Of a stretch of 64,000 nt of DNA, positions 56,137-58,566 are shown piece after piece. A model generated the notes under the pieces. The model did no database searches. It was not told the DNA's origin and saw nothing but the letters and a program-made list of their open reading frames with translations. The stretch spans positions 124,001 through 188,000 of the forward strand of contig NZ_WEZF01000008.1 of assembly GCF_009177065.1 (NCBI RefSeq), read 5' to 3'. Within the stretch, counting starts at the first letter, position 1; each line of letters begins with the position of its first letter. This DNA comes from Tautonia marina. Its GTDB lineage: Bacteria > Planctomycetota > Planctomycetia > Isosphaerales > Isosphaeraceae. A program made the position numbers and the translations under genes.

Positions 56137-56156
56137 TCCCCCTTCCACCCTCAACG

Positions 56157-56325
56157 GATGCGTTGCCCCTTGGCCTTGGGTGACCCCGGTGCTCGGCCTT
56201 GGATGGCCCCGGTTGCTCGCCAACCGGGGCGGCGCAGCCGCAAGAGGCGACAGGAGGCCGCCCCGAGATCGTTCGTCGCTCCGCGACCCCGGTGGACGAA
56301 CCGCGAACAACCAGGGCCACCCCAG
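56157..56325 (+). repeat. Structured repeat, copy 1 (imperfect terminal inverted repeats)
   Basis: The core from 56205 matches copy 2 at 58253 over about 95 bp with only a handful of differences. It includes the hairpin CCCCGGTTG/CAACCGGGG. Copy 1 also has an extra 24-bp duplication of its left end and worn right end (CCAGGGCCACCCC). It lies between the two-helix protein and the unknown gene, in direct orientation with copy 2. Confidence 0.85.
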
Positions 56326-56659
56326 ACAAACTCACCCGTTTTGATGGGAAGCGGCACAAGCGCACAGCCCCGTCGGCCCCGCTGCGCAGCCCTCCCTGAT
56401 CCCCCTCGACCGACCTCAACCTCTCCCCGTCGCCTCTCCTCCGCCAACCGCCCACGACTCGTTTCCCGCGACACCTCGCCCCCCACCTCCCATCCCATCC
56501 GTGTTCCATCCGTGGCTCTCAACCTCCCTGTTCCGATTTCACTTCCCCGAAAAAAACGCAATAAAGCCTCCTCTTTTTCCAGATTGTTTCAGACAGGAGC
56601 AAGCTCGCTCCTCCCGTTCCTGGTCCGCCCCCATCGCATCCTTTGGAACACGCACCCTC

Positions 56660-57880
56660 ATGGCCGCCTCCTTGAAACAGACCCTCGCCAACCGCCTCAA
56701 CGCCCTCCGCTCGACCGGCCCAAAATCGACCGAGGGCAAAACCCGATCGAGCCGCAACGCCCAGACGCACGGACTCTCCCGCGTCGGCCTTCACCCCCCG
56801 GCCGCAATGGCCGAGGCCATCGCCGAACGTCAATCGCTCTGGCGAACCGACTACCACCCGACCGGCTCCGCGCAGGAATGGCACTTCGACCGCCTCGTGG
56901 CCGAATCCGTCCGCCTCGACCTCTGCGAGGCCCGCATCTGTGCCTCCCGAGCCGAACGCGCCACCCGAGCCTCCGAATCCTGGGACGACGACCAGGCCGC
57001 CGCCATCGCCCAGCGTGCGGCGACCCTCTCCCAGCGCCCCGAGATCATCCAGCCCGTGCTCCTGCAAACCAAGCACGGCGTCCTCTGGCTCCTGGAGCGC
57101 TGGGACGAGATCCTTGAATCCCTCCAACGCCTCGACGGCTGGACCCCCGAAACCTGGAACCTCGCCCTCGACCTGCTCGGCGTCCCCACCTCGGCCCGAG
57201 ACGCCTCCGGCCCGTGGGACCTCCACCCCGACGACTCCAGCGCCGCCCCCGGCCTCGACCTCGTCGCCCAGTCCACCGCCGCCCTCCGCGACCGCCTCGA
57301 CACCTTCCTCAACGCCCGAGACGACCGCGCCCGCACCGACGCCTGCCTCGGCCTCGATGCCGACGACCCGCCCGCCCTCCGTCTTCTGGAACGCTACGCC
57401 GCCGACGCCCGACGCCGCTTCTCCTTCTTCCTCAACGGCTTGCGACGCCTCCAATCCGAAGCCCCCGCGTTAACCTCCGCCTCTCCCCCCGCCGGTCCTC
57501 CCTCCCCCCGACCCGTCCGATCCGCCCTCCCGCCCGAGCCCTCCCCGACTCCTGCCGCGTTTGACCGCTCCCAGCCCTCGCCCCCACCCGCAGCCGCCGG
57601 CCGGTTGCCCATGCCTTCCCAACCCTCGCCCCCGATTGCGGGGGAGAGGGTGGCCGAAGGCCGGGTGAGGGGGTCCGACCACCTCGACGCCCCCGTGAAC
57701 CCCGCTCCGACCCCTGCCCCGGCCTCAAACTCGGCCCCCTCGGCCGCGCCGACGGCTCCTTCCACCCGGCTCCCTGGCGGCTCGCTCGCCTCGACGGTCC
57801 GCGATCGCCTCGACGCCCGCGCTCTTTCGCTCAACCGCCGCGCCCGACGCGCCCGAGCCGCCTCGGCCCGACGTTCCTGA
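56660..57880 (+). CDS. Unknown protein of the STGPK-TEGK type, bracketed by direct repeats
   Basis: 406 residues from the ATG at 56660, chosen because the family signature follows directly: LANRLNALRSTGPKSTEGKT, then SSRNAQTHGLSR. This start motif is shared by a multicopy family of unknown function in planctomycetes and acidobacteria. A helical middle (about 60-270) is followed by about 140 residues of Pro/Ala/Ser low complexity, in which a REP-like hairpin (57623-57670) has been read as code (GERVAEGRVRGS). The C-terminus is basic (RRARRARAASARRS). No catalytic motif is seen. Confidence 0.75.
   Translation: MAASLKQTLANRLNALRSTGPKSTEGKTRSSRNAQTHGLSRVGLHPPAAMAEAIAERQSLWRTDYHPTGSAQEWHFDRLVAESVRLDLCEARICASRAERATRASESWDDDQAAAIAQRAATLSQRPEIIQPVLLQTKHGVLWLLERWDEILESLQRLDGWTPETWNLALDLLGVPTSARDASGPWDLHPDDSSAAPGLDLVAQSTAALRDRLDTFLNARDDRARTDACLGLDADDPPALRLLERYAADARRRFSFFLNGLRRLQSEAPALTSASPPAGPPSPRPVRSALPPEPSPTPAAFDRSQPSPPPAAAGRLPMPSQPSPPIAGERVAEGRVRGSDHLDAPVNPAPTPAPASNSAPSAAPTAPSTRLPGGSLASTVRDRLDARALSLNRRARRARAASARRS
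57623..57670. repeat. REP-like hairpin inside a coding region
   Basis: CCCTCgCCCCCG pairs with CGGGGGaGAGGG across an ATTG loop, and GGCC-GAA-GGCC follows. The pattern resembles the hairpin at 38612. It sits in frame in the low-complexity tail of the unknown gene. Confidence 0.65.
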
Positions 57881-58226
57881 GCGGCGTCACTCCTCGGCGA
57901 TCCTCTGTTCCGCTTCGGATCTGCCCCCCGACTGTCCCCAACGCCGAACCCACGAACCCCCGATCGGTCCCGAGCCCCTCCTTGATCCGCCCGATCGCCG
58001 CTCTCCGTCCGTCCCGTGCCACCGCTCCGCCCCCCGCCACTCCATCCGACGAGCCCGGCCATGCCCTCGATCCCGCTCCGCATCCGCCTCCTTGGCCCTC
58101 CAATCCTCCCCGCGCGAATCGAACCCAATCGGCCCGCCCGATCGCAGCCTCGACGGTTCCTTCTCGTCCTTCCGACCCTTCTCGTCGGATGCCGTCGCGT
58201 TCTCGTCGGGTGTATCCACTCTCAAA

Positions 58227-58367
58227 TGATGCGTCGCCCCGTTGTCCTGGGTGGCCCCGGTTGCTCGCCAACCGGGGCGGCGCAGCCGCAAGAGGCGACG
58301 GGAGGTCGCTCCGAGACCGCTCGTCGCTCCGAAACCCCGGTGGACGAGCCACCGGGGCCACCCAGGA
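58227..58367 (+). repeat. Structured repeat, copy 2, with perfect 17-bp terminal inverted repeats
   Basis: The unit 58245-58367 (123 bp) is flanked by TCCTGGGTGGCCCCGGT and its exact complement. Internally it has the hairpin CCCCGGTTG/CAACCGGGG, a GC-rich middle, and a second CCCCGGTGG/CCACCGGGG hairpin at the right end. The left flank from 58227 is also shared with copy 1. It has the form of a REPIN or small non-autonomous element. Confidence 0.9.
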
Positions 58368-58566
58368 ATAAACCCACCTTTGGTGAGTGGAAGCGGTACT
58401 ACGGGCGATCCAAGCCAGGCGTTCCCCCTCCGGGGCGTGGCCGACGAGGCGAGGCAATGGTATGACAGTCATCGTGAGGGCGGGCCTCGGCCTGCCTGTT
58501 CCCCGGTGGCAGGCCAAGGCGTCCTGCCCATCCATCCCTCATCTCGATTCCCGACGAGGTGCCGCC

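Follow-up and report, generated by a model that had tools for sequence, protein, structure and literature searches.

The locus examined here raises the question of whether a gene and the two repeats that bracket it travel together. It lies in a 64,000-nucleotide stretch of Tautonia marina DNA (the window, G000:C8:124001-188000), where a gene encoding a 406-residue protein of what we call the STGPK family sits between two related repeats in the same orientation. The initial annotation had proposed that gene and repeats form a small mobile cassette of about 2.2 kb, or alternatively that the gene belongs to a family spread with REPIN-like elements. We examined the repeats, the gene and their distribution in the source genome (G000, a 7.07-Mb draft) and in related genomes.

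The sequence features that led to this proposal are real (Table 1). The gene does lie between two direct repeats, which match at 91% over 103 nt (56200-56302 versus 58248-58350), and the perfect 17-bp terminal inverted repeats described for the second copy can be seen in the sequence: its core is a palindrome with 51-nt arms that are 78% complementary, the outer 17 bp pairing without mismatch. Relative to shuffled sequences, the DNA fold of copy 2 has a z of -5.7, and that of the decayed copy 1 a z of -1.7. The length of 123 bp originally given for the repeat holds for the core but not for the element, since an alignment of 30 genomic copies revealed outer arms (consensus ~GTAGTACCGCTTCCACYCTCAAATGATGCG) that reach past the 123 bp and bring the full repeat to about 195 bp. 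The repeat consists of two GTGG-tagged REP hairpins of the form GTGG-CCCCGGTTG...CAACCGGGG, set in inverted orientation and nested in these longer outer arms. A structured RNA was also considered and rejected, the only Rfam match being sub-threshold (22 bits, cut-off 50).

Table 1. Features of the STGPK locus, in window coordinates.
Feature	Position	Strand	Remarks
REPIN copy 1 with outer arms	56137..56358	+	Decayed; short internal duplication on left side; REP-doublet core ~56200-56322
STGPK-family gene	56660..57880	+	ATG 56660, stop 57880; 406 aa
REP-like hairpin from another dispersed repeat family, unrelated to the REPINs	~57640..57671	+	In frame with the coding sequence, inside the linker
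REPIN copy 2 with outer arms	58205..58403	+	REP-doublet core 58245-58367, perfect 17-bp ends

To count the REP hairpin across the source genome, we used a pattern of one hairpin plus its tag (GTGGCCCCGGTTGCTCGCCAACCGGGGCGG) with up to three mismatches, and the reversed pattern as a control. There were 79 matches to the REP hairpin and 0 to the control, which shows that chance does not account for the repeat. The 79 hairpins group into 49 sites spread over many contigs, of which 28 carry at least two REP halves (within three mismatches).

Three Y1 tyrosine transposase genes are present in the same genome (on contigs C1, C19 and C22), and all three pass the NCBIfam cut-off for REP-associated tyrosine transposases (RAYTs). 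The C19 RAYT (G000:C19:97218-97727) scores 117 bits against NF047646 (cut-off 80) and 57 bits against PF01797, has TnpA-REP 4er8 as its best solved relative, and keeps both the DHVH motif and the catalytic tyrosine (KYIHLNP). GTGG-tagged REPs flank each of the three genes, by REP type: window-type REPs lie 3' of the C19 RAYT and a closely related REP lies 5' of it, and the REP flanking the C1 and C22 RAYTs is a sister type (GTGG plus CCCGGACAAC..GTTGTCCGGG), which a pattern search of the source genome did not find anywhere away from these two genes. Different RAYTs in one genome have been described as associating with their own REP families, whose hairpins have GTAG or GTGG as a tag at their foot (PMC6006769), and the RAYT-specific REP types found here fit this published picture.

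The initial annotation's comparison with REPINs therefore stands, as the genome contains dispersed pairs of inverted, GTGG-tagged hairpins together with a cognate RAYT. The likeness is to the REPIN/RAYT (TnpA-REP) systems of Pseudomonas and E. coli, where GT[AG]G-tagged inverted hairpin pairs are dispersed (PMC3116915, PMC2817692, PMC6006769), the gene for a tyrosine HuH transposase is flanked by the same REP, and several RAYTs may each have their own REP type. Unlike those systems, the one described here has a moderate copy number (49 sites), the GTGG tag, and outer arms of ~45 bp on its dispersed copies, and the RAYT motif set (DHVH, WQ, YIHLNP) does not correspond to any one of the subclasses tabulated in PMC6006769. 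Planctomycetes have been reported among the REP carriers, and REPs that are read within genes have been reported as well (PMC3733652).

The outer arms (GTAGTACCGCTTCCAC...) raise the alternative that a DDE transposase acts on them and that the repeat is its MITE, the inner REP-like hairpins being incidental. Such an origin would account for long outer inverted arms on most dispersed copies and for their absence from the REPs beside the C19 RAYT. We consider it quite unlikely, as the REPs are GTGG-tagged and paired with a RAYT, all 14 genomic matches to the outer-arm pattern adjoin a REP site, and the genome search with this pattern found no longer or other element with such ends. The 14 matches also indicate that the arms are part of the element and not of its target sequence. 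REP dimers inside long palindromes, for example A. variabilis GTAG-15, have been reported alongside TIRYT families (PMC3733652); compared with those palindromes, the outer pattern here occurs only next to REP sites and so looks like a component of the element.

By analogy with TnpA-REP, we infer that a RAYT moves the REPINs. These would be non-autonomous mobile DNA, and the C19 RAYT is the most likely source of their amplification in trans. As an HuH single-strand nuclease, this enzyme would be expected to recognise the tagged hairpin in single-stranded DNA and cut beside it, which would let REPIN copies insert elsewhere.

The genus offers some comparison of transposase state with repeat number. 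The nearest RAYT of genome G001 (G001:C1:7963369-7963857) has serine in place of the catalytic tyrosine, and the RAYT of G003 (G003:C22:85596-86101) is split by a frameshift; judged from their sequences, both look inactive. G001 contains only two partial window-type repeats and G003 contains none. The nearest relative of the source genome, G002, has ~20 REPINs and distant RAYTs only, so that loss of its own RAYT must be assumed. Such a loss is also suggested by the site syntenic with the C19 RAYT, where G002 lacks a RAYT and retains only truncated remnants of REPs. At this site (L125:5340-5720, on G002:C20), the two truncated REP halves lie around an element of ~250 bp that has its own inverted ends (CCCCCCTTTCAACATTT...AAATGTTGAAAGGGGGG) and is adjoined by a third type of GTGG-tagged hairpin. 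The correspondence between an intact RAYT with many sites and a defective RAYT with few or none is only suggestive, because it comes from four genomes.

The protein encoded between the repeats has a helical core extending to about residue 267, a proline-rich disordered linker and a short, basic C-terminal helix (NRRARRARAASARRS). The AlphaFold model has a mean pLDDT of 77.7, with residues 51-267 of the core nearly all above 90. The family has no match in Pfam, NCBIfam, PHROGs or PADLOC and no solved relative, and a literature search for the motif string STGPRTPEGK did not find it. A function could not be derived from the fold, as a search of the model against PDB and viral structures gave no match at E<=0.001, nor from genomic context, as the paralogues have no conserved neighbour gene. 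We rejected a phage or plasmid origin, since a tblastn search of phages and plasmids found no match, and viral contigs likewise contained none. The head motif (STGP...NA..HGL) and the basic tail are both conserved, and on these two grounds we would tentatively guess at a nucleic-acid-associated helical protein acting through this head and tail, a role that we regard as possible rather than probable.

The source genome has 10 close and ~10 distant copies of the family. Members are present in 18 of the 40 relatives searched (E<=1e-10). The number of matches in one genome reaches 37, the maximum among all genomes searched, in G023, which is of the same taxonomic family and has these matches scattered over 7.2 Mb. 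A search of named genomes gave a single weak match, in Planctomycetales. In the source assembly, the ends of three contigs fall at or within distant members of the family (G000:C1:10-492, G000:C24:10-486 and the end of G000:C3), and near-identical fragments are encoded at the C1 and C24 ends, so that the family is a probable cause of breaks in the assembly.

The history of the gene can be read at the orthologous locus of G002, where the order of a porin gene, a small ORF, the STGPK gene and a TIM-barrel gene is kept. The G002 orthologue encodes a protein 80% identical to that of the window, in the same location, and neither REPIN is present. Between the two genes, dS is 0.35 and dN 0.11 (dN/dS ~0.32, and 0.28 for the helical core), values that reflect purifying selection. 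In the tree of the family, the copies of G000 and G002 are mostly paired one to one, and in the pairs compared the flanks are syntenic, with the C35 pair comparable over the gene region only because of a contig end. One copy shows a discordant placement: G000:C1:366295-367386 is syntenic with G002:C7, yet its protein clusters in the tree with that of the C11 paralogue G000:C11:166302-167372 (support 94/84), a possible sign of gene conversion between copies. The family is an ancient paralogous one of this planctomycete lineage and vertically inherited, and the window gene keeps its locus.

These comparisons bear directly on the idea that the gene and its two repeats form a composite cassette of ~2.2 kb that moves as a unit. 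Two direct repeats 2 kb apart around one gene, and a gene family in many copies, are what such a cassette would look like. At the window locus, the gene without either repeat in G002 refutes it, unless both repeats were lost precisely there, and the paralogue on C14 tells the same story, its G002 counterpart being kept with no REPIN. No second member of the family has a repeat on both sides, and no neighbouring genes are common to the paralogues. The paralogues are 42-66% identical in protein and the repeats mostly 84-95% identical in DNA between copies, which argues that they did not spread together. A pair of neighbouring sites this close is also expected by chance: for a spacing of 0.4-2.2 kb, the genome-wide expectation has a mean of 0.59 (P ~0.45). 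We therefore regard the cassette as extremely improbable. Very probably, this locus juxtaposes two independent components: dispersed REPINs and an old, vertically inherited gene. The two REPINs would have inserted on either side of the gene after the split from G002, or would have been lost in G002; the junctions of the window repeats are too diverged in the comparison with the G002 locus for a target-site duplication to be read.

The second proposal, a gene family spread with REPIN-like elements, is not supported either: among the 10 close paralogues, 7 lie more than 500 bp from any REPIN, and the paralogues have no flanking genes in common. The remaining three do have one within this distance, as do 0 of the 10 distant copies. 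With uniform placement of sites, ~0.08 close genes would be expected to have a REPIN this near (p 5e-5); allowing for a preference for intergenic DNA, the expectation rises to ~0.5 and p to ~0.01, both of which are rough estimates and not measurements. In addition, a REPIN lies ~250 bp upstream of the C11 gene and also of G002:C22, which is among its closest relatives in the tree, in one alignable stretch, so that some dependence in placement is possible. The positional association between REPINs and STGPK genes is a weak one.

This association could mean that REPINs are drawn to STGPK genes or retained beside them, because the loci are permissive or because a REPIN serves there as a terminator or mRNA stabiliser. 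The three close genes and the upstream REPIN common to C11 and G002:C22 speak for it. We think it unlikely, given the lack of a REPIN within 500 bp at most close and all distant genes, a presumed general preference of REPINs for intergenic DNA that would reduce the excess, and the location of most of the 49 sites nowhere near the family. More elaborate, and very improbable in our estimation, is a new composite unit, defined by the outer arms, in which a REPIN set in its own terminal palindrome owes its mobility to a planctomycete RAYT acting in trans and preferentially lands or is retained next to STGPK genes, with the proteins of these genes perhaps involved in the handling of the hairpins. 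We retain the reading of REPINs and gene as independent neighbours: the repeats occur at many sites away from the family and the gene occurs without them in G002, both of which the initial annotation had named as observations that speak against its proposal, and the weak association is what is left of the link.

The initial annotation was also right that a hairpin is embedded in the coding tail of the gene, although it comes from a separate repeat family with 35 copies genome-wide (control 0). It sits in frame in a linker insert of ~30 residues that is missing from most close paralogues. The insert is also present in the G002 orthologue, which indicates that the hairpin was absorbed into the gene before the split of G000 and G002. 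In-frame REP insertions tolerated in flexible linkers or loops have been described (PMC6006769).

REPIN/RAYT is a known kind of system, found here in Tautonia next to an uncharacterised gene family of many copies; among the papers listed by our literature search, none joins REPIN/RAYT terms with Tautonia or Isosphaeraceae. The analysis corrects a tempting cassette reading and documents a small REPIN/RAYT system in this genus, together with a large uncharacterised planctomycete gene family that lies outside all curated libraries searched. The genus itself provides a natural comparison, with ~49 sites in the genome that has an intact RAYT, almost none where the RAYT has lost its tyrosine, none where it is frameshifted, and orphan REPINs in a genome that has no close RAYT.
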